Shown: one piece after another, positions 15,326-26,824 of the stretch
Numbering within the stretch: position 1 is the stretch's first letter
Layout: every line of letters starts with the position of its first letter
NCBI GenBank assembly: GCA_017443065.1
Contig: JAFSPF010000143.1
Span: 1 to 37,338, forward strand
Direction: 5' to 3'
Origin: Lachnospiraceae bacterium
Lineage (GTDB): Bacteria; Bacillota; Clostridia; Lachnospirales; Lachnospiraceae
DNA: 37,338 nucleotides
Program-made: the position numbers and the translations under genes
The notes under the pieces: generated by a model
Databases searched by the model: none
Told to the model about the DNA's origin: nothing
Seen by the model: the letters and a program-made list of their open reading frames with translations, nothing else

Positions 15326-17413
15326 ATGAACGTTTACACAACTGACAAAATCCGCAACGTCGTATTATTGGGGCACGGGGGATGCGGAAAAACGTCACTG
15401 GCGGAGGCCATGGCCTATCTTGCGGGCCTGACCAGCCGCGTCGGAAAGGTGGCGGACGGCAACACAATCAGTGATTTCGGCAAGGAGGAACAGAAGCGTC
15501 AGATCTCCATCTCCACCTCCGTCATCCCGATGGAGTGGGAGGGCGCAAAGATCAATGTTCTGGATACGCCCGGCTTCTTTGATTTCGTGGGAGAGGTCGA
15601 GGAGGCGATGAACGTCGCGGACCTTGCGATCATCGTGATCAGCGGCAAGGCCGGCATTGAGGTCGGCGCGGAGCGCGCCTGGGACCTGTGCGAAAAGCAT
15701 AAGATGCCGCGCATGATCTACGTGTCGGATATGGACATCGATGATGTTTCCTACCGTCAGGTCGTACAGGATCTGGAGGACAAGTACGGCAAGAAGATCG
15801 CGCCCTTCAACCTGCCGATCCGTGAAAACGAGAAGTTTGTCGGTTATGTCAACGTCATTCAGGAAAAGGGCTTCCGCTGGGAAGGCAAGGAAGTGAAGGA
15901 ATGCCCGGTGCCGGATTATAACGAGGAGAACCTGAAACTGTACCGTGACGCGTTGATGGAAGCGGTCGCGGAGACGAGCGAGGAATTCATGGACCGCTAC
16001 TTCGGCGGGGATACCTTCTCCGAGGCGGAGATCCGCTCCGCGGTGCGCATCGGCGTCAACGACTGCTCGATCGTGCCGGTCACGATGGGCTCCAGTACCC
16101 TCGTGCAGGGCGTCTTCACGCTGATGGATGATATCGTGAAATACTGCCCGAGCCCTGACATGCGCAAGATCGCGGGCATCAACTCCAAGACGAATGAGAT
16201 CTTTGAGGCGGATTATGATTTCAGCAAGCCCAAGAGCGCCTTTGTCTGGAAGACGATGATGGATTCCTTCATCGGCAAATACTCCCTGATCAAGGTGCGC
16301 TCGGGCGTCATCAAAACAGATGACATGCTCTATGACGTGGAGGAGGGCTCCGAGTTGAAGATCGGCAAGCTCTTCATCCTCACCGGCAACAAGGCCTCCG
16401 AGATTCCGGAGCTGCACGCCGGGGATATCGGCGCACTGCAGAAGCTGGATGTCAACACCTCGGACACGCTCTCCACAAAGGCGACGCCCGTCCAGTACGC
16501 GAAGATGGATCTGCCGAAGCCCTTCACGATCATGCGCTACCGCGCGGTGAACAAGGGCGATATCGATAAGGTCTCGCAGTCCTTACAGAAGATGGCGGCG
16601 GAAGACCCGACGCTGCGTGTGGTCAATGACGGTGAGAACCGCCAGACCTTAATCTACGGCATGGGAGACCAGCACATTGAGGTTGTGGCCAGCCGCTTAC
16701 AGAACGAGTTCAAGGTGCCTGTGGAGCTGATGAAGCCCAAGGTCGCCTTCCGTGAGACGATCCGCAAGAATTCCGATGTGGATTCCAAGTACAAGAAGCA
16801 GACCGGCGGCCACGGCCAGTACGGTCATGTCAAGATGAAGTTCTCCCCTTCGGGAGAGATGGAAACCCCTTACGTCTTCGAGCAGGAGGTCGTGGGCGGC
16901 TCCGTTCCGAAGAACTATTTCCCGGCGGTGGAAAAGGGCCTTGTGGAGTCCTGCCAGTCCGGACCGCTTGCGGCATATCCCGTCGTCGGCGTCAGGGCCG
17001 TGCTGTACGACGGTTCTTATCACCCGGTGGATTCCTCCGAAGGGGCCTTCAAGGTGGCGACAAGAGACGCCTTCAAGAAGGGCTTCATGGAAGCGGGGCC
17101 GGTGCTCCTTGAGCCCATCGTGACGCTCAAGGTCACGGTGCCGGATGCTTACACCGGCGATGTCATGGGGGATCTCAACAAGCGCAGAGGCAGGGTGCTC
17201 GGCATGAATCCCGTCGGCGGCAAGCAGGTGATCGAGGCGGAGGTGCCGCAGATGGAGCTCTACGGCTACTGCACGCAGCTGCGCAGCATGACCGGCGGCG
17301 CGGGGGACTTTGAATATGAGTTTGCCCGCTATGAGCAGACGCCTTCCGATGTGCAGGAGAAGGAGGTCGCCGCAAGGGCCGCAAAGGTTGCGGAGGGAGA
17401 CGTGGAAGAGTAA
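15326..17413 (+). CDS. Elongation factor G paralogue (EF-G-like translational GTPase) with altered G motifs
   Basis: A 695-residue protein with the full EF-G order: G domain, domain II, III, IV and V. The P-loop is GHGGCGKTS (16-24). The G3 motif is DTPGFFDF (80-87), so the catalytic His of EF-G (DTPGHVDF) is Phe84. The G4 motif is SDMD (134-137) instead of NKMD. Domain IV is intact, including YKKQTGGHGQYGHV and the SSEGAFKVATRDAFKKG region. This is not canonical FusA: it belongs to the paralogue group found in Clostridia and related to EF-G2. Such paralogues can act in translocation with weak or no GTP hydrolysis. I prefer ATG 15326, eight bases from GGAGG, over ATG 15320, only two bases away. 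It stands alone between two terminators, with pepF just beyond the second. Confidence 0.85.
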   Translation: MNVYTTDKIRNVVLLGHGGCGKTSLAEAMAYLAGLTSRVGKVADGNTISDFGKEEQKRQISISTSVIPMEWEGAKINVLDTPGFFDFVGEVEEAMNVADLAIIVISGKAGIEVGAERAWDLCEKHKMPRMIYVSDMDIDDVSYRQVVQDLEDKYGKKIAPFNLPIRENEKFVGYVNVIQEKGFRWEGKEVKECPVPDYNEENLKLYRDALMEAVAETSEEFMDRYFGGDTFSEAEIRSAVRIGVNDCSIVPVTMGSSTLVQGVFTLMDDIVKYCPSPDMRKIAGINSKTNEIFEADYDFSKPKSAFVWKTMMDSFIGKYSLIKVRSGVIKTDDMLYDVEEGSELKIGKLFILTGNKASEIPELHAGDIGALQKLDVNTSDTLSTKATPVQYAKMDLPKPFTIMRYRAVNKGDIDKVSQSLQKMAAEDPTLRVVNDGENRQTLIYGMGDQHIEVVASRLQNEFKVPVELMKPKVAFRETIRKNSDVDSKYKKQTGGHGQYGHVKMKFSPSGEMETPYVFEQEVVGGSVPKNYFPAVEKGLVESCQSGPLAAYPVVGVRAVLYDGSYHPVDSSEGAFKVATRDAFKKGFMEAGPVLLEPIVTLKVTVPDAYTGDVMGDLNKRRGRVLGMNPVGGKQVIEAEVPQMELYGYCTQLRSMTGGAGDFEYEFARYEQTPSDVQEKEVAARAAKVAEGDVEE

Positions 17414-17425
17414 CAAGCGCATACA

Positions 17426-17459
17426 AACGCCCCGGAGGCGCGCCTCCGGGGCGTTTTTT
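17426..17459 (+). terminator. Strong hairpin terminator abutting the pepF ribosome site
   Basis: A perfect palindrome with ACGCCCCGGAGG on the left and CCTCCGGGGCGT on the right encloses GCGC, followed by T6. The T-run is separated by one base from the AAGGAGGG ribosome site of pepF, leaving no space for a promoter between them. Confidence 0.85.
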
Positions 17460-17471
17460 GAAGGAGGGCTT

Positions 17472-19175
17472 ATGAAATTCAGTGAGATGAAGTACGAGCG
17501 GCCGAACAAGGCGCAACTGATCGAAAGGATGAAGGACTGCATTGCCCGCTTCCGGGACGCGGCCTCCTTTGAGGAGGCAAAGGCGGTGTTCCTCGAATGG
17601 GACGAAAACGAAAGACATGTCCACACCCTCAGGACACTGGCCGATATCCGCAATTCCATCGACACGCGCGATGCCTTTTATGAGGCGGAGGAGAAGTGGT
17701 GGAACGAGACGGGTCCGGAGCTGCAGGAATTCGGACAGCTCTGGCAGAAGGCCCTGGTGGATTCGCCCTTCCGTAAGGAACTGGAAAAAGAATTCGGCAA
17801 AATCATCTTCACGAACGCAGAGATCGCCCTGAAGGCCTTTTCGCCGGAGATCATTTCCGAAATGCAGCAGGAGAACGATCTGGTGACGGCCTATGAGAAG
17901 CTGATCGCCTCCGCGCAGATTCCCTTTGAAGGAAAGACCTATACCATTTCCCAGATGGCGCCCTTCCGCAATGACGCGGATGACACGAGGCGTCTTGCCG
18001 CCTGGAAGGCGACGGGGCAGTGGTTCAAGGAGCATCAGGAGGAGCTGGACCGCCTCTATGACGAGCTGGTGCATCTGCGCGATGCGATGGGCAGGAAGCT
18101 CGGCTATGACGGCTACACGGAGCTCGGCTACTACCGCATGTCACGCAACTGCTATGACAAGACGGATGTGGAGAAGTTCCGGAAGGCGGTGGTGGAGTAC
18201 CTCGTGCCCGTGGCGGAAAAGATCCGCAGGGCGCAGGCGGAGCGCACCGGAAAGGCCTGGCCCTTAAGCTATTCCGATATGGCACTGGAATTCAAGAGCG
18301 GCAATCCGAAGCCCGCGGGCGGCGTGAAGGAGATCGTCGAGGCCGGAAAACGCTTCTATGACGCGCTTTCCCCGGAGACGAGCGACTTCTTCAACGGGAT
18401 GATCGAAAACGGCATGATGGACCTGGAATCCAAGGAAGGGAAGCGCGCCGGCGGCTATATGACGGAGATTTTCGATTATAAGACCTCCTTCATCTTCGCC
18501 AATTTCAACGGCACGCAGCATGATGTGGAGGTGGTCACGCATGAGGCGGGACATGCCTTTGCGGGCTACATGAATTACGACCGCGTGCCGCTTTCGACGA
18601 CCCTCCCGACGATGGAGGCCTGCGAGGTGCATTCCATGTCCATGGAATTCTTCGGCTGGAAGAGCGCGGAGGATTTCTTCGGGGCGGATACAAAAAAGTT
18701 TCTGTACAGCCATCTGACGGGTTCCATCCTCTTTATCCCTTACGGCACGCTGGTGGACCATTTCCAGCATGTGATGTATGAAAAGCCGGATCTGAGCCCT
18801 AAGGAACGCCATGCGGAGTGGAAACGCCTGCAGCAGATCTACATGCCCTGGGTGAACCTCGACGGGGACATTCCTTTTTACGCGGACGGAGAGGCCTGGC
18901 AGCAGCAGCTGCACATCTATGTGCACCCGTTCTATTACATTGATTACTGCCTGGCGCAGACCGTGGCGCTGTCCTTCTGGGCGATGATACAGGAAGATGA
19001 GAACAAAGCCTGGGAGAAATACATGGCCTACACGCGCCTCGGCGGTTCCCTGACATTTACGGAGCTGCTGGAGAAGGCGGGACTGCAGACGCCCTTCGGC
19101 GGGGAGATGCTGAAACAGGTCTGCGAGAGGGCGACGGCGTGGCTGGATGACTATGATCTTGAGGGGGTTTTGTAA
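17472..19175 (+). CDS. pepF: M3 family oligoendopeptidase (PepF-like)
   Basis: A 567-residue cytoplasmic zinc peptidase of family M3B, which trims short peptides. The zinc site is HEAGH (His357, Glu358, His361) in VVTHEAGHAFAGY, with the third ligand Glu385 in EACEVHSMSMEFFGW. A family HxYxxPFYYIDY-type segment near the C-terminus helps close the active site. There is no signal peptide. The start at 17472 has AAGGAGGG six bases upstream; the frame is open further up, but that stretch lies in the EF-G gene and the terminator. The peptide importer follows at 19308, so peptides brought in could be processed by this enzyme. Its own promoter is not visible, so it may depend on read-through from the EF-G paralogue gene. 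Confidence 0.9.
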   Translation: MKFSEMKYERPNKAQLIERMKDCIARFRDAASFEEAKAVFLEWDENERHVHTLRTLADIRNSIDTRDAFYEAEEKWWNETGPELQEFGQLWQKALVDSPFRKELEKEFGKIIFTNAEIALKAFSPEIISEMQQENDLVTAYEKLIASAQIPFEGKTYTISQMAPFRNDADDTRRLAAWKATGQWFKEHQEELDRLYDELVHLRDAMGRKLGYDGYTELGYYRMSRNCYDKTDVEKFRKAVVEYLVPVAEKIRRAQAERTGKAWPLSYSDMALEFKSGNPKPAGGVKEIVEAGKRFYDALSPETSDFFNGMIENGMMDLESKEGKRAGGYMTEIFDYKTSFIFANFNGTQHDVEVVTHEAGHAFAGYMNYDRVPLSTTLPTMEACEVHSMSMEFFGWKSAEDFFGADTKKFLYSHLTGSILFIPYGTLVDHFQHVMYEKPDLSPKERHAEWKRLQQIYMPWVNLDGDIPFYADGEAWQQQLHIYVHPFYYIDYCLAQTVALSFWAMIQEDENKAWEKYMAYTRLGGSLTFTELLEKAGLQTPFGGEMLKQVCERATAWLDDYDLEGVL

Positions 19176-19307: not shown

Positions 19308-21314
19308 ATGAAAAAGAGAACCATGAGAAGCGTTGCTTCTGTGCTTCTGCTCGCCTTCGCGCTGACTGCCTGCGGCGGCAATGCCGGCAGCACAGCCACG
19401 ACGACGGCGGAACCGGCTGCGACGGAGGCGTCCACGGCTGCGGAAGCGACGTCTGAAGCATCTGCGGAAGCGTCCACGGCGGAAGAGGCACCCGCGGAGG
19501 TGCTCAACCAGATCATCTACGGCACGACGACCGAGATGAACGGTGACCTGGGCAATGCCTGGTGGAAAAACAACGCTGCGGACAAGACGCTGCGTGACCT
19601 GATTGATGACTATGATGTGGTTGTTTCCAATCAGGACGGCGAGATCATTTTGAACGATACGGTTGTCAAGAACATGGAAAGCGAAGAAAACGCGGACGGC
19701 TCCAAAACCTTTACGGTTGAGATCAATGAAGGCCTGAAGTTCAACAACGGCGATCCGATCACGGCCGCTGATTTCTGCGCGAATCTGCTGATTGCGCTTT
19801 CTCCCGCCGCAAACGAAGCGGGTGCGAAAACCAATGAAACCGCCGAGCAGGTGGTGGGCGGAGTCGAGTATCAGAGCGGGGAAAGCAATGTGATTTCCGG
19901 TCTGAGACTGCTGGATGAATATACCTATTCCATCACAATCAATGCGGATTTCATTCCGTATTACTTCGATTTACTGTATGCGTCCCTGCGTCCGATGTCC
20001 TTCAAATTGTACGCACCGTCCCAGACGGACATCACGGTCAAGGATGACGGCGAAGGCGTTTATCTGGACGGCGGCGAGCTTTCCGCGGAAGAGATTGATG
20101 CTTCCCGTTACGTTTATGAAGGCCGTATTTCCGCAGGCCCTTACCAGATGGAAAGCTTTGACCAGGCTTCCGTTTCCGCAACCGTTGTGATCAACCCGAA
20201 TTATGCGGGCAACTTTGAAGGCCAGAAGCCTTCCGTCGAGCGCATCATCATTGTGAAGGCCGTGCAGGCGACGATGCTGGATGAGCTGGCCACCGGCGGT
20301 ATCGACTTCTTAAGCGCATTAACCGGCGGTGACGAAGTCAACGCGGCGCTGGATCTGGAAGAAACCGGTGATTTCTACACAGTCAACTATGACCGCGCAG
20401 GCTACGGTAAGCTGATGTTCCAGTGCGACTTCGGCCCCACGCAGTTCAAGGCGGTGCGTCACGCAATCGCCTATCTGCTGGATCGCAATGACTTTGCCAA
20501 TACCTTCACGGGCGGCTACGGCTCCGTTGTGCACGGTCCTTACGGCATTGCCATGTGGATGTACAAGGATTCCAAGGAAGAGCTGGCGGATCGTCTGGAC
20601 ACCTACGCCTATGATGTCAATAAGGCAATCGAAGTCCTGGAAGAGGACGGCTGGGTGTTGAATGAAAAGGGTGAAGATTACACCGAGGGCATTCGTTATA
20701 AGAAAGTCACTAAGGAAGAAGCCGGTGATTACCAGCACAATGTGACACTGGCGGACGGCACGATCCTGATGCCGCTGATCATCGAATGGGCATCCTCCGA
20801 AGGCAACTCCGTGTCTGACCTGCTGGCGGTTATGCTGGCAAACGGTGACCAGGTCAAGGAAGCCGGTATCCAGATCAACCAGGCGGTTATGACCTTCGAA
20901 GAACTGCTGAATTACATGTACCGTGACGCGACGGCAGGTGATCAGTACGGTGTGCCGACCTACGGCATGTACAACCTGGCCTCCAACTTTTCGGCAGCGT
21001 ACTCTCAGGCATATCAGTTTGTTACGGAAAAATCCAATCCGGAGTACTACGCACAGGGCTACAACTCCAACTTCACGGATAGTGAGGAGCTGGATCAGCT
21101 TTCCATGGACATGGTCTATGGTGTGGAGCCCGGTGATTCGGAAACCTACCTGAAGATTTGGGTGGACTTCATCGACGAGTGGAACGATTATCTTCCCGAG
21201 ATCCCGCTGTACTCCAATATCTACTATGATATCATGAGCAGCAAGATCCATGATCTCGAGTGCAACCCGCTCTTTGATTTCCAGCAGGCGGTGGTGTACG
21301 CGTACATCGAATAA
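19308..21314 (+). CDS. oppA: Oligopeptide-type ABC importer binding lipoprotein (family 5)
   Basis: A 668-residue family 5 (OppA/DppA) binding protein. The signal peptide ends at lipobox LTAC with Cys22. An Ala/Thr/Glu/Ser-rich linker of about 40 residues follows, then the folded part. Family features include the TVEINEGLKFNNGDPITAADF segment, the standard early OppA motif, and a middle region with IAYLLDRNDFANTFTGGYGS. The protein is somewhat longer than a typical OppA of about 540 residues. A strong GGAGGG ribosome site precedes ATG 19308. It is the first gene of the operon and is separated from the permease genes by a long hairpin. The ligand is probably a peptide; other family 5 ligands such as opines or nickel complexes are not excluded. 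Confidence 0.85.
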   Translation: MKKRTMRSVASVLLLAFALTACGGNAGSTATTTAEPAATEASTAAEATSEASAEASTAEEAPAEVLNQIIYGTTTEMNGDLGNAWWKNNAADKTLRDLIDDYDVVVSNQDGEIILNDTVVKNMESEENADGSKTFTVEINEGLKFNNGDPITAADFCANLLIALSPAANEAGAKTNETAEQVVGGVEYQSGESNVISGLRLLDEYTYSITINADFIPYYFDLLYASLRPMSFKLYAPSQTDITVKDDGEGVYLDGGELSAEEIDASRYVYEGRISAGPYQMESFDQASVSATVVINPNYAGNFEGQKPSVERIIIVKAVQATMLDELATGGIDFLSALTGGDEVNAALDLEETGDFYTVNYDRAGYGKLMFQCDFGPTQFKAVRHAIAYLLDRNDFANTFTGGYGSVVHGPYGIAMWMYKDSKEELADRLDTYAYDVNKAIEVLEEDGWVLNEKGEDYTEGIRYKKVTKEEAGDYQHNVTLADGTILMPLIIEWASSEGNSVSDLLAVMLANGDQVKEAGIQINQAVMTFEELLNYMYRDATAGDQYGVPTYGMYNLASNFSAAYSQAYQFVTEKSNPEYYAQGYNSNFTDSEELDQLSMDMVYGVEPGDSETYLKIWVDFIDEWNDYLPEIPLYSNIYYDIMSSKIHDLECNPLFDFQQAVVYAYIE

Positions 21315-21430: not shown

Positions 21431-22447
21431 GTGACGAAATATATACTGAAAAGAATTCTATACATGGTGGTTGTCTTTTTCATCGTATCATTTGTCATGT
21501 ATTTTTTGTTTAATCTGATTCCGAGTGACCCGGCAAGACTGGAACTTGAAGAAATGAAAAAAACACTCAGACCGGATGTCTACGAGAAAATGTACCGGGA
21601 TCTGAGGGAATCTATGGGACTGGATGATCCGATCATTGTACGCTATGCCCGCTGGTTGGGCGTCATTCCCGAAAAGAGCGGCGAGTTCAACGGGTACTTT
21701 CAGGCGAATTTCGGTTATTCCAATTTCTACAAAAAACCGGTGGTGAATGTCATTTCCGCCCCGATCAGGACAACGGTTTTCATGAATATCTTTGCGACGA
21801 TTTTGGCTCTTGGTATCACGATTCCGCTTGGGATCTGGTGCGCGGTGCATAAGGGAAGCCGCAGGGATAATTTTGTCCAGGTGTTTTCTATCGTCGGCTA
21901 TTCCATACCAATCTATATTATAGCCTTGGTATTTATCTATGTATTTGCGGTGCTGCTGCGCTGGTTCCCGGTTTCCGGTATCGGAACACCGGGCGCCAAT
22001 TATACGGGCCTTCGGGCTTTTCTGGATGAATTGTATTATCTTGGTCTGCCGCTGATCGTCATGACCTTCGCTTCGCTCGGCGGCATGAGCAGGTACGTGC
22101 GCTCGGCCATGATCGAGGCGCTCTCCATGGATCACATCCGCACGGCGCGCGCAAAGGGTGTCAAGGAGCGCGTGGTGATTTATTCCCATGCCTGGCGCAA
22201 CGCGCTGCTGCCGGTTGTGACCCTGATCATCAGCTGGTTTCTCGGTATTTTTTCGGGATCCGTGCTGGTGGAGTCCACCTTCGGCATCAGCGGTATGGGA
22301 AGACTTTATATCCAGAGTCTTTCCAACCATGATTTTGAGGTATCGCTTTTTGTGCAGATGTTTTATACGGTCGTGAGTCTGGTCGGTGCGTTGCTGATGG
22401 ATCTGATCTACGGATTTGTCGATCCGCGCATCCGTGTCAATAAATAG
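21431..22447 (+). CDS. oppB: Oligopeptide ABC importer permease OppB/DppB
   Basis: A 338-residue permease with the usual layout: TM1 at residues 9-29, an extracytoplasmic region of about 80 residues, then five TM segments. Family segments are VSFVMYFLFNLIPSDPA near the N-terminus, the docking loop MDHIRTARAKGVKERVV and the C-terminal DLIYGFVDPRIRV. The start is GTG at 21431 with GAAGGAGGAAG upstream; the first in-frame ATG would cut into TM1. Unlike its partner OppC, it has no extra domain. It ends 13 bases before oppC. Confidence 0.92.
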   Translation: MTKYILKRILYMVVVFFIVSFVMYFLFNLIPSDPARLELEEMKKTLRPDVYEKMYRDLRESMGLDDPIIVRYARWLGVIPEKSGEFNGYFQANFGYSNFYKKPVVNVISAPIRTTVFMNIFATILALGITIPLGIWCAVHKGSRRDNFVQVFSIVGYSIPIYIIALVFIYVFAVLLRWFPVSGIGTPGANYTGLRAFLDELYYLGLPLIVMTFASLGGMSRYVRSAMIEALSMDHIRTARAKGVKERVVIYSHAWRNALLPVVTLIISWFLGIFSGSVLVESTFGISGMGRLYIQSLSNHDFEVSLFVQMFYTVVSLVGALLMDLIYGFVDPRIRVNK

Positions 22448-22460
22448 GGGAGGTTCCGGA

Positions 22461-24329
22461 ATGCCCGAAAAGAAAAAGAAACCATCGATTTGGCGCCGCC
22501 TCTTCGGCAACCGCAATACGGAAACGAATATCCTGGCGGAGGAACAGATACAGTCCCCCGGCAGGATGATGCTTTCCAATTTCCTGCATAACAAGCTGGG
22601 GATGACCGGTTTGATTATTTTTTTATTGATCTTTGTCTTTGTGTTTATCGGCCCGTATTTCATCCAGATTGATCTTGGCGACAATGATAACACGCAGATC
22701 CACGTTCCGCCGATCAACTCCATGCTGGAGGTGCCAAAAGAGCTTGACGGTAACATTCAGGACATCGCCGCGGGAGCGACCTTCGGTCTCGGCTGTGACA
22801 AGGATGGAAAGATCTATATCTGGGGATATACGAAGATTACGGATACGATCGATTTAAAGGATATCCCGGAGGAGGTGCTGGAGGCCAAGATTGTTTCCGT
22901 CGCGGCCGGTTATGACCATGCCGTGGCACTGGGAGATGACGGGCAGCTCTACGTCTGGGGCAACAAGCGTCTCGGGCAGGACCGCATTCCGCAGGAATTG
23001 AAGGTGTCGCGTAAAAAAGGCGGCAAAAACATCATCCAGATCGAAGCGGGATATCAGTGTTCCGGTGCCCTGACGGATGAGGGGAATGTCTATTTCTGGG
23101 GCAACACGAATATGTGTGACCTGGATGTCAGGAAAGATTACCGCGAGGGTGTCAAAAAATTTGCCATTGCCACCTACCACTACTGTCTGCTGATGGAGGA
23201 CGGAAGCGTGGTTTACGGCGGCATTGAAAAGACGAATGCCTTCAACCGGATTCCGGAAAGCCTTTCCTCCGGCGTGGTGGATATCGCCGCGACCGGTGAC
23301 ACGATGGCAGGCGTGAAAGAAAACGGTGAAATCATCGTTTGGGGTAATACCGCACACAGCGAAAACAAGGTGCCGGAGCGCGTATCCGCCGCAGAGGCGG
23401 ATGACGAGGAGCCTGTCATGACCGCGAAGCCGCTGGAAATCTATGGCGGACGTTATCACTATACGGCGCTGATGGAAAACGGCGATGTGGTCAGCTGGGG
23501 AGACAACGGGCATCACCAGATCGACATCCCCGCTTCCGTCAACGAAAAGGATATCGAGACCGTCTTCGCGGGATTTTACCAGAATTACGCGGTGGATGTG
23601 GACGGTGATGTCCATACCTGGGGACTGAAGGGTCACCCGCTCGGGACGGATGACCTGGGCAGGGACATCCTCACCCGCATCATCAACGGCGGACAGATCA
23701 CGATGACCGTCGGATTTGTCGCGGTAATCATTGCGATTGTCATTGGCGTCATTATGGGCGGACTCGCAGGCTATTTCGGCGGCAAGGTGGATATGCTTGT
23801 CATGCGTATCGCGGAGGTATTCGGCGCGATTCCCTTCCTCCCCTTTGCGATGCTGCTTTCCGCGATCATCGGCACAAGGATTGATGTGACAAAGCGCATG
23901 TATCTGATCATGGTGGTGCTGGGTGTTTTGTCCTGGACCGGTACCTGCCGTCTGATCCGTGCGCAGATTTTAGCGGAGCGCGAAAAGGAATTTGTCACGG
24001 CGGCGCAGGCAATGGGTGTCCGAGAAAGGACGATTATCTTCAAACACATTCTGCCGAATGTGCTGAATGTGCTGCTGGTGGAAGCGACACTTTCCTTTGC
24101 CACCTGTATGCTGACGGAATCGACACTGTCTTACCTCGGCTTCGGTGTTCCTTTGCCGTCGCCATCCTGGGGGAATATGCTCTCCGGCGCGAACAACTCC
24201 ATTGTCATCCAGCAGTACTGGTGGCGCTGGGTGTTCCCCTCGCTGATCTTCGGGATCTGCACAATCTGCATCAACTTAGTCGGCGATGCCATCCGAGACG
24301 CGGTTGACCCGAAATCGATCGGACATTAA
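22461..24329 (+). CDS. oppC: Oligopeptide ABC importer permease OppC/DppC with an inserted seven-repeat RCC1 beta-propeller
   Basis: A 622-residue permease about twice the normal 280-320. Residues 1-47 are cytoplasmic and TM1 spans about 48-70. Residues 95-391 hold seven RCC1-type repeats, each of the form [IVP]-x-x-[IVF]-x-x-G-x(5)-[AG]-[LV]-x-x-x-G-x-[ILV]-x-x-WG. They begin near residues 99, 144, 191, 231, 272, 324 and 365; the fourth and fifth are the most degenerate. Seven is the number of blades in an RCC1 propeller. The normal OppC sequence resumes at once with HPLGTDDLGRDILTR (392 onward), followed by five TM segments, the docking loop FVTAAQAMGVRERTI and the STLSYLGFGVPLPSPSWG motif. 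By topology the propeller is extracytoplasmic, on the side where OppA docks. The frame is continuous with no sign of frameshift. The start at 22461 has GGGAGG upstream. Confidence 0.93.
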   Translation: MPEKKKKPSIWRRLFGNRNTETNILAEEQIQSPGRMMLSNFLHNKLGMTGLIIFLLIFVFVFIGPYFIQIDLGDNDNTQIHVPPINSMLEVPKELDGNIQDIAAGATFGLGCDKDGKIYIWGYTKITDTIDLKDIPEEVLEAKIVSVAAGYDHAVALGDDGQLYVWGNKRLGQDRIPQELKVSRKKGGKNIIQIEAGYQCSGALTDEGNVYFWGNTNMCDLDVRKDYREGVKKFAIATYHYCLLMEDGSVVYGGIEKTNAFNRIPESLSSGVVDIAATGDTMAGVKENGEIIVWGNTAHSENKVPERVSAAEADDEEPVMTAKPLEIYGGRYHYTALMENGDVVSWGDNGHHQIDIPASVNEKDIETVFAGFYQNYAVDVDGDVHTWGLKGHPLGTDDLGRDILTRIINGGQITMTVGFVAVIIAIVIGVIMGGLAGYFGGKVDMLVMRIAEVFGAIPFLPFAMLLSAIIGTRIDVTKRMYLIMVVLGVLSWTGTCRLIRAQILAEREKEFVTAAQAMGVRERTIIFKHILPNVLNVLLVEATLSFATCMLTESTLSYLGFGVPLPSPSWGNMLSGANNSIVIQQYWWRWVFPSLIFGICTICINLVGDAIRDAVDPKSIGH

Positions 24330-24348
24330 ACAGGCGGAGGAAACAGAT

Positions 24349-25338
24349 ATGCCTTTACTGGATATGAAACATCTCCACAGTTATTTTACGACGAAACGCG
24401 GGATCGTGAAGGCGGTGAATGACGTGTCCTATTCCGTGGAAAGCGGGAAAACGCTCGGTCTCGTCGGCGAGTCCGGGAGCGGAAAGAGCGTTTCCGCCAT
24501 GAGTATATTAAGACTCCTGGATTCCAACGGCTACATTGATTCCGGTTCCATCGAGTTTGACGGCAGAGAGCTGACCAAACTCTCTCTGAGTGATATGTAC
24601 AAGGTGCGCGGCAATGATATTTCCGTCATTTTCCAGGAGCCGATGACCTCCTTGAATCCCGTGTTTACGGTCGAACGGCAGGCGTCGGAGCCCTTCATCA
24701 TCCATCAGGGCATGAGCAAAAAGGAAGCGGCGAAGAAGGTGGTGGATATCCTTGCGGATGTCAAGATCCCCAATCCGGAGGTTGTGGCAAAGCAGTATCC
24801 GCACCAGCTTTCCGGCGGCATGCGGCAGCGCGTCATGATCGCGATGGCCCTGGCCTGCCGTCCGAAACTCCTGATTGCGGATGAGCCGACAACCGCGCTG
24901 GACGTGACGATACAGGCGCAGATTCTGCATCTGATGAATGAACTCAAACGTGAGCTTGGCACGTCCATCCTCTTCATCACGCATGACCTCGGTGTCATCA
25001 ACCAGATGGCGGACGACGTGGCGGTCATGTACTGCGGACAGATCGTGGAGATGTCTCCCGCGCATACGATTTTCGGCGGCGGAAGCGCTTACATGCATCC
25101 GTATACGGAGGGACTGATGAATTCCATCCCGCGTCTGGACGCGGATTCCTCCGAACGTCTGGAGCCGATTCCGGGTGCCGTGCCGCATCCCCTGAATCTG
25201 CCGAAGGGCTGCAAGTTTGCGCCCCGCTGCAAGTACGCGACGGACAAGTGCAGGGAAGAGGAGCCGGAACTGGTCAAGGTAAGCGATACGCAGCAGATCC
25301 GCTGTTTTTATCCGGAGGTAAGCAAGAGACATGTCTGA
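24349..25338 (+). CDS. oppD: Oligopeptide ABC importer ATPase OppD/DppD
   Basis: A 329-residue ATPase of normal length. It has Walker A GESGSGKS (40-47), Q-loop in VIFQEPMTSLNP, signature LSGGMRQRV, Walker B LLIADEPTTALD and switch His in ITHDLGV. The C-terminal peptide-importer extension carries conserved cysteines in GCKFAPRCKYATDKC and a later IRCFYPE, a spacing that in some relatives binds an iron-sulphur cluster. GGCGGAGG precedes ATG 24349. It overlaps oppF by eight bases and should form the ATPase pair with it. Confidence 0.93.
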   Translation: MPLLDMKHLHSYFTTKRGIVKAVNDVSYSVESGKTLGLVGESGSGKSVSAMSILRLLDSNGYIDSGSIEFDGRELTKLSLSDMYKVRGNDISVIFQEPMTSLNPVFTVERQASEPFIIHQGMSKKEAAKKVVDILADVKIPNPEVVAKQYPHQLSGGMRQRVMIAMALACRPKLLIADEPTTALDVTIQAQILHLMNELKRELGTSILFITHDLGVINQMADDVAVMYCGQIVEMSPAHTIFGGGSAYMHPYTEGLMNSIPRLDADSSERLEPIPGAVPHPLNLPKGCKFAPRCKYATDKCREEEPELVKVSDTQQIRCFYPEVSKRHV

Positions 25339-26824
25339 TGAAAAAAAGGTGTTGCTGCGCATCAGCAATCTGAAACAGTATTTTCCGCTGAAAAAAAGAG
25401 GCCTTTACGTCAAGGCGAATGACGGCATCACGCTGGACATTTACGAGGGTGAGGTCTTCGGCCTGGTCGGCGAATCCGGCTGCGGCAAGTCGACGCTCGG
25501 CCGCACCATTTTACAGCTTTACAAGCAGACGGATGGCCGCACGATGTACTACGGCAAGACCCTGGATGACCTCGCGCCGAAGTACATGCTGGACACCGTG
25601 AAGAATCTGGAAAAGAAGATTGCGGAGATCGGCGAAAAGGAAAAGAAGCGTGACGAGCTGCAGGCGCATTATGACAAGCTCTCCGAAAAGGAGCAGTTTG
25701 AAAAGCACGCGGAGCTGGATGCGGCAAAGAAGGCCGCTTCGGACGCGCTTTTAGATGTGGCGAATATCGTCGGCGGCTTCATGGCGCTGAAGGACCTTTC
25801 CAGGGTGAAGGCGGCCTATGAGGCGAATTACAGCCTGGCGCGCAAGCGCAGGGATTTAAGGGTGGAGCGTGCAAGGGCACAGGTGGAGCATGATGACGCC
25901 GCCTTCGAAAACAGGAACGCTTCCGCACAGGAAGAAAAGGTTAAGAGCATTGACAAGCAGATCGCGGATTTGGACCGTGAGATCGATGCCTCCGTAAAGG
26001 CGATCGATGCGCTCCGGCAGCCGCATATGAACGATCCGGAGTTTCAGAAGTTCGAAGCCATGCGCGACGAGGGCGTGGACCTGGCGCGCCTGACCTATAA
26101 CGAAATCCGTCTGCTGCGGCAGGATTTACAGATCATCTTCCAGGATCCGTATTCCTCGCTCAATCCGCGCATGACGGTCGGTCAGATCATCGGCGAGGGT
26201 CTGATCGCGCATAACATCTTCCGCAAAAACAATGACCGCATGAAGGAGTATATCTTAAAGGTCATGGATGACTGCGGCCTGCAGGGATACTTTCTGCACC
26301 GCTTCCCCTATCAGTTCTCCGGGGGACAGCGGCAGCGTATTTCGATCGCAAGGGCACTTGCGGTGAAGCCGAAGTTTGTCGTCTGTGACGAGGCGGTTTC
26401 CGCGCTGGACGTGTCCGTGCAGTCCCAGATCATTAACCTCCTGCAGGATCTCAGGGAACAGCAGGACCTGACCTATCTCTTCATCACGCATGACCTGTCC
26501 GTCGTGAAGTACATTTCCGACCGGATTGGCGTCATGTACCTCGGCAATATGGTGGAGCTGGCGGCCTCGGATGAGATCTTCCGCGCACCGGCGCATCCTT
26601 ACACGAGGGCGCTTCTGGACTCCATCCCCACGACGGAGGAGAAGAAGGAGATCAAGGTGCTGGAGGGCGATATCCCGAGCCCGGTGAATCCGCCGTCCGG
26701 CTGCAAGTTCCATACCCGCTGCAAGTACTGCACGGAGATCTGCGAGCATGTGACGCCGGCCTGGGAGGAGATCGCACCGGATCACTTTGTGGCCTGCCAT
26801 CACCGCCTGGGTGCGGAGAGCTGA
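25331..26824 (+). CDS. oppF: Oligopeptide ABC importer ATPase OppF/DppF with a long coiled-coil insertion
   Basis: A 497-residue ATPase where about 320 is usual. Walker A GESGCGKST is at 47-55. After the TMYYGKTLDDL strand (71-81), about 175 residues rich in Lys, Glu, Ala and Asp follow (roughly 80-253). They are strongly helical in composition, with heptad-like runs such as KNLEKKIAEIGEKEKKRDEL and KSIDKQIADLDREIDASVKA. The ATPase then resumes with EIRLLRQDLQIIFQDPYSSLNP (Q-loop Gln271), signature FSGGQRQRIS, Walker B FVVCDE (349-354) and the Cys-containing C-terminal extension. The catalytic motifs are intact, so it should be active. The insert lies where other OppF proteins have a few residues. 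It overlaps oppD by eight bases, so translation is coupled. Confidence 0.93.
   Translation: MSDEKKVLLRISNLKQYFPLKKRGLYVKANDGITLDIYEGEVFGLVGESGCGKSTLGRTILQLYKQTDGRTMYYGKTLDDLAPKYMLDTVKNLEKKIAEIGEKEKKRDELQAHYDKLSEKEQFEKHAELDAAKKAASDALLDVANIVGGFMALKDLSRVKAAYEANYSLARKRRDLRVERARAQVEHDDAAFENRNASAQEEKVKSIDKQIADLDREIDASVKAIDALRQPHMNDPEFQKFEAMRDEGVDLARLTYNEIRLLRQDLQIIFQDPYSSLNPRMTVGQIIGEGLIAHNIFRKNNDRMKEYILKVMDDCGLQGYFLHRFPYQFSGGQRQRISIARALAVKPKFVVCDEAVSALDVSVQSQIINLLQDLREQQDLTYLFITHDLSVVKYISDRIGVMYLGNMVELAASDEIFRAPAHPYTRALLDSIPTTEEKKEIKVLEGDIPSPVNPPSGCKFHTRCKYCTEICEHVTPAWEEIAPDHFVACHHRLGAES

Follow-up and report, generated by a model that had tools for sequence, protein, structure and literature searches.

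A 37,338-nucleotide contig of a Lachnospiraceae bacterium (GenBank assembly GCA_017443065.1, contig JAFSPF010000143.1, positions 1 to 37,338 of the forward strand; this whole stretch is the window below) carries an oppABCDF operon encoding a type I peptide importer, whose OppC-type permease contains a series of RCC1 repeats between its first transmembrane helix (TM1) and its core (Table 1). The oppC open reading frame (ORF) is intact and likely begins at ATG 22461, judging by a GGGGAGG seven bases upstream. The product matched the Pfam families RCC1_2 (111.1 bits, cut-off 22), RCC1 (39.1 bits, cut-off 21.7), OppC_N (residues 32–84; 39.6 bits, cut-off 23.9) and BPD_transp_1 (residues 429–618; 117.7 bits, cut-off 26.4), and RCC1_2, OppC_N and BPD_transp_1 were all matched at E 0.001 in 53 of 53 aligned proteins, comprising the window's OppC and 52 relatives; an RCC1 insert in OppC is far beyond chance. 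The window protein is not filed under WD40_RLD, the Pfam model of the whole RCC1-like domain (139.6 bits, under the cut-off of 150), nor as the NCBIfam equivalog Opp4C, its best NCBIfam match, because the score of 312.3 bits falls under the cut-off of 350.

The structure of OppC alone, which the original prediction had proposed to model, was predicted with AlphaFold as a closed propeller within an intact OppC fold. The first strands of the blades begin at exactly the residues near which seven repeats had been read from the letters (99, 144, 191, 231, 272, 324 and 365, in ATG numbering), and the insertion site expected between TM1 and the HPLGTDDLGRD motif matches both the Pfam layout and the model. 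Seven closed blades and similarity to BLIP-II support a closed seven-bladed propeller, as anticipated; a degenerate or open fragment was ruled out by the predicted model together with low ratios of non-synonymous to synonymous substitution rates (dN/dS). Measured against two relatives (L018 and L019, respectively), dN/dS was 0.064 and 0.116 for the insert, 0.019 and 0.062 for the core and 0.086 and 0.113 for OppA, values that are rough because dS was 0.7–1.4; by this sequence-based measure the insert is under purifying selection. Its GC content (0.546) is similar to that of the core (0.557). Because the modelled permease aligns with E. coli OppC throughout, across the insert, and because the N-terminal tail is positively charged (8 Lys and Arg versus 4 Asp and Glu) and residues 65–413 negatively charged (30 versus 56), the propeller probably lies outside the membrane, where it had originally been placed.

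Table 1 Features of the opp operon and of its propeller-bearing permease
Feature	Positions in window	Strand	Size or residues	Remarks
oppA	19308..21314	+	668 aa	Family 5 substrate-binding lipoprotein; SBP_bac_5, 129.6 bits
oppB	21431..22447	+	338 aa	Permease; BPD_transp_1, 131.8 bits; BPD_transp_1_N
GGGGAGG	22447..22453	+		Ribosome-binding-like site before the oppC ATG; read from sequence
oppC	22461..24329	+	622 aa	Permease with RCC1 insert; counted from ATG
TM1	22593..22661	+	45–67	Model helix, hydropathy, OppC_N match
Predicted seven-bladed RCC1/BLIP-II-like propeller	22755..23621	+	99–387	
Blade 1	22755..22826	+	99–122	
Blade 2	22890..22961	+	144–167	Best RCC1_2 match
Blade 3	23031..23102	+	191–214	
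Blade 4	23151..23216	+	231–252	Terminal GG in place of WG
Blade 5	23274..23345	+	272–295	
Blade 6	23430..23501	+	324–347	
Blade 7	23553..23621	+	365–387	Exit link of four residues, GLKG, to HPLGTDDLGRD
OppC permease core	23634..24326	+	392–622	Starts at HPLGTDDLGRD
oppD	24286..25338	+	350 aa	ATPase; ABC_tran, oligo_HPY; ordinary Walker A–Q-loop distance, 55
oppF	25331..26824	+	497 aa	ATPase with long insert; aligned with four OppF without insert
OppF insert	25562..26068	+	About 78–246	Between Walker A and Q-loop; alignment with four OppF without insert

The propeller-bearing permease is not a single oddity; it characterizes one clade of OppC within Bacillota, many of them gut and rumen bacteria. 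Its spread, which the original prediction had proposed to map, was followed in genus, class and phylum samples. Of the 61 genomes in the genus sample, 10, counting the window's, had a match that extended into the insert at E 1e-60; three further genomes matched in the core alone and carry a different insert. RCC1-bearing OppC occurred in 17 of 391 genomes of the class sample and 14 of 398 of the phylum sample, two genomes (one of them the window's) being in both. Among 43 OppC from these two samples, 28 carry the insert (core identity 48.9–82.3%) and 15 do not (44.5–48.9%); this set holds the loci for 29 of 49 sample rows besides the window, the other 20 rows, at no more than 46% core identity, being left out (one of them, G259, is locus L133, which carries another insert). 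When genome contigs were scanned with the insert alignment, 53 loci emerged, whose titles mostly denote gut and rumen Bacillota; among them are records without a metagenome label, namely Butyrivibrio proteoclasticus P18, Butyrivibrio sp. AE3009, MC2021, Su6 and AE2015, and Lachnospiraceae bacterium YSD2013. Relatives lacking both of the insert-start peptide patterns that seeded the scan were missed. An assembly join was ruled out, the insert occupying the same site in the 53 loci (one, L058, is cut by a contig end) and in the 28 class and phylum loci, some of which come from the same genomes as the 53; two insert-bearing loci lie in one-contig genomes (G092 and G109). For operon comparisons we used 64 RCC1 loci (the window's and others among L018–L070 and L120–L129).

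In trees built from the permease core only, all RCC1 rows fell on one side of a branch, with Shimodaira–Hasegawa-like approximate likelihood ratio test support of 99 in a tree of 81 rows and support of 100/100 in a second tree (77 rows, after removal of four long-branched rows; the labels of L095 and L100 were set by hand from their sequences). Repeated gain of RCC1 was thus not supported. Within these trees the window OppC lay near loci titled Ruminococcaceae and Erysipelotrichaceae, away from the Butyrivibrio type of its genus mates, which suggests that the operon was transferred, the titles of metagenome-assembled genomes being uncertain. In Butyrivibrio-type inserts (L004–L011), blades 2 and 3 flank an acidic stretch rich in Glu, and the GTD motif is altered, for example to GTDGYGADIF. 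The expectation that other OppC proteins have only a short loop at this site held for some of them and failed for a separate group with a different insert of about 120–290 residues. Twelve such proteins formed another group in the core tree (97, then 100/97), and no Pfam family scored over its cut-off in the four of these inserts scanned. The different insert was seen at L012–L014, L088, L090–L092, L094–L097, L099 and L131–L133. OppD is longer (379–405 residues) in the other-insert operons L013, L014 and L131–L133 than in seven short-loop operons (324–338), and the OppC-like product of L100:781-2196 is extended at its N-terminus by a hydrophobic segment of about 160 residues.

The propeller operons share a second feature. 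In 59 of 59 readable OppF from the 64 RCC1 loci, the Walker A–Q-loop distance was 196–238 residues, compared with 48–51 in all 12 OppF that were readable next to 14 other OppC (five other-insert and seven short-loop). The five unreadable RCC1 loci are four at contig ends (L028, L047, L053 and L058) and L125, in which OppF reads as separate ORFs (L125:7732-9282). This tie between a long OppF insert and propeller operons is reported here for the first time; from its sequence the insert is perhaps a coiled coil. Because all RCC1 operons form one clade, the propeller and the OppF insert may reflect a single joint event and not many. The confinement of the propeller to a single clade, its full co-occurrence there with the OppF insert and the presence of a different insert at this site in another OppC group would also fit a further role, in which the propeller serves as a spacer or as a regulatory cap, lacks a set partner and persists because the clade ancestor acquired it along with the OppF insert. 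Purifying selection on the insert and strong conservation of blade and loop residues, although many of these may be structural, speak against such a role, which we consider improbable.

Several known systems help to place the propeller. OppC and DppC chains matched in solved importers (E. coli OppBCDF, 8z21, and DppABCDF, 8z1y; M. tuberculosis OppABCD, 8j5q) span 273–289 residues and are too short to have room for it. Unlike the propellers of BLIP-II, UVR8, HERC2 and RCC1, that of the window is lodged within a permease, between TM1 and the core. In GlnPQ- or OpuA-style importers a substrate-binding domain is fused to the permease; this arrangement was rejected here, as the inserted domain consists of RCC1 repeats and OppA has a gene of its own. 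The CRINKLY4 ectodomain, for which PMC4617170 proposes a peptide-receptor role, belongs to a plant receptor kinase, whereas the window protein is a transporter. Like the window OppC, the maltose importer has a large extracytoplasmic domain inside a permease, MalF-P2, the placement being predicted and docking of the binding protein conjectural in our case. MalF-P2 has another fold and occupies another loop; it is a functional model for the propeller and not a relative. PMC3150292 describes contact between MalF-P2 and the binding protein MalE. In the literature searched we found no paper joining RCC1 with OppC; all domain databases and most subscription papers lay outside that search, so the architecture may be listed there.

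We hypothesized that the propeller is a docking platform for the cognate membrane-anchored OppA, a reading to which we assign a probability of about 0.5; the contact itself is deduced from linked rates of change. OppC would have acquired a BLIP-II-like propeller whose predicted place is on the outer side of the membrane, and short links, of only four residues at the exit, would keep it near the permease. There it would capture OppA and orient it over the channel, as MalF-P2 does for MalE, and among several Opp-type permeases in one cell it may keep OppA on its own channel. The window's own genome contains three further OppC-like matches, one with an in-frame stop.

Holding OppA was one of three roles in the original prediction, and it is the best supported, since insert distances follow those of OppA; substrate and wall binding stay as rivals. 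Covariation was assessed with FastTree distances in 51 complete operons, the 13 incomplete ones of the 64 loci being left out. The correlation of insert distances was 0.97 for OppA and 0.82 for the OppC core, with partial correlations of 0.81 versus −0.08 (0.84 and 0.11 with simple identity distances). The insert–OppA partial correlation was 0.80 in the 34 operons whose OppA appears circularly permuted (see below) and 0.78 in the 17 others, and 0 of 2,000 label permutations reached the observed value in any of the three sets. Without the window clade (41 operons), it was 0.91, or 0.55 by ranks. Lower values were obtained for the OppF insert (0.35 with OppA) and for the OppC N-terminal tail plus TM1 (0.33).

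Other results weigh against docking. Rank versions were weaker (0.54, 0.38 and 0.70 for the 51, 34 and 17 operons), and within the 10 operons of the window clade the value was 0.54, or 0.13 by ranks. The covariation was diffuse, extending over all seven blades (0.46–0.75) and ten OppA windows (0.41–0.80), and the outer segment of OppB covaried as well (0.67 with OppA, 0.71 with the insert). Much of the signal could therefore come from outer parts that change at a faster rate in common. Tree topologies of the 51 operons showed no insert–OppA excess: shared splits were 0.74 versus 0.73 for insert–core at support 90, and 0.58 versus 0.62 without a support limit. Moreover, docking of OppA to ordinary Opp importers proceeds with no domain of this type. 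The rates of insert and OppA are linked and their topologies are not; this rate link is compatible with docking and also with faster change shared by the outer parts. As a separate observation in these operons, the OppA, OppB and OppC trees agree with one another better than with those of OppD and OppF, a hint that the histories are partly separate.

The gene order bears on another possibility, that the propeller serves next to the channel as a receptor for peptide or substrate, a role of the kind proposed for CRINKLY4, and senses peptide or hands it on to OppA. Among the 64 RCC1 loci, 59 have oppA upstream of oppB, and in the remaining 5 the fetched sequence starts less than 300 bases before oppB; because OppA is present in all 59 loci whose sequence extends far enough, the propeller has not replaced the binder, and we regard a receptor function as unlikely. 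Further upstream in the window (17310-19172) lies an M3-family peptidase gene, relatives of which flank 18 of the 64 loci, the window included.

Searches for a donor, which identified none, bear on a third alternative. A plasmid tblastn search returned 29 records, all below 60% identity (best listed, 30.7%), with no permease named among the 15 listed; 7 of these 15 are hypothetical and 7 are named, mostly as typical secreted or surface proteins. RCC1_2 was matched nowhere else in the window's own genome (94% complete) at E 0.001. The named matches, and the description of BLIP-II as a secreted protein binder in PMC9218822, would suit a propeller that anchors the importer by binding to material of the cell wall or envelope or to some other secreted protein. 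Propeller distances are linked more closely to those of OppA than to those of other parts, a pattern that provides no particular reason to invoke a wall ligand, and we see little chance that such anchoring is its role.

OppA itself varies within the clade. The segment that ends the window OppA had its best match near the N-terminus in 34 of the 51 complete operons and near the end in 17, including the window, whose OppA is not permuted. OppA of the 34 operons thus looks circularly permuted, which is new here. A model of one such protein (L062:4177-6477; predicted local distance difference test score 72.5, predicted template modelling score 0.63) aligned in order with binding proteins only from residues 182–210 onward, and solved chains fell short in the alignment (1b52 to 443 of 515 residues, 1dpp to 441 of 507). 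This model-based alignment fits circular permutation, though the shortened match could arise without it because the last 65 or so residues of the model are poor. Going beyond OppA docking, a more speculative reading, which we rate as less likely than not, is a distinct importer architecture, in which an outer propeller dock and an inner OppF coiled coil would have arisen together, the propeller would have become an obligatory OppA receptor, and one lineage would then have circularly permuted OppA while keeping the pairing.

Type I ATP-binding cassette importers are textbook material, and it is unsettled how a tethered binding protein locates its cognate channel when several similar importers share a cell. 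The site between TM1 and the core of OppC hosts at least two inserts without detected mutual similarity. A permease with a built-in propeller, present in named Butyrivibrio strains among others, offers a removable part for probing docking.
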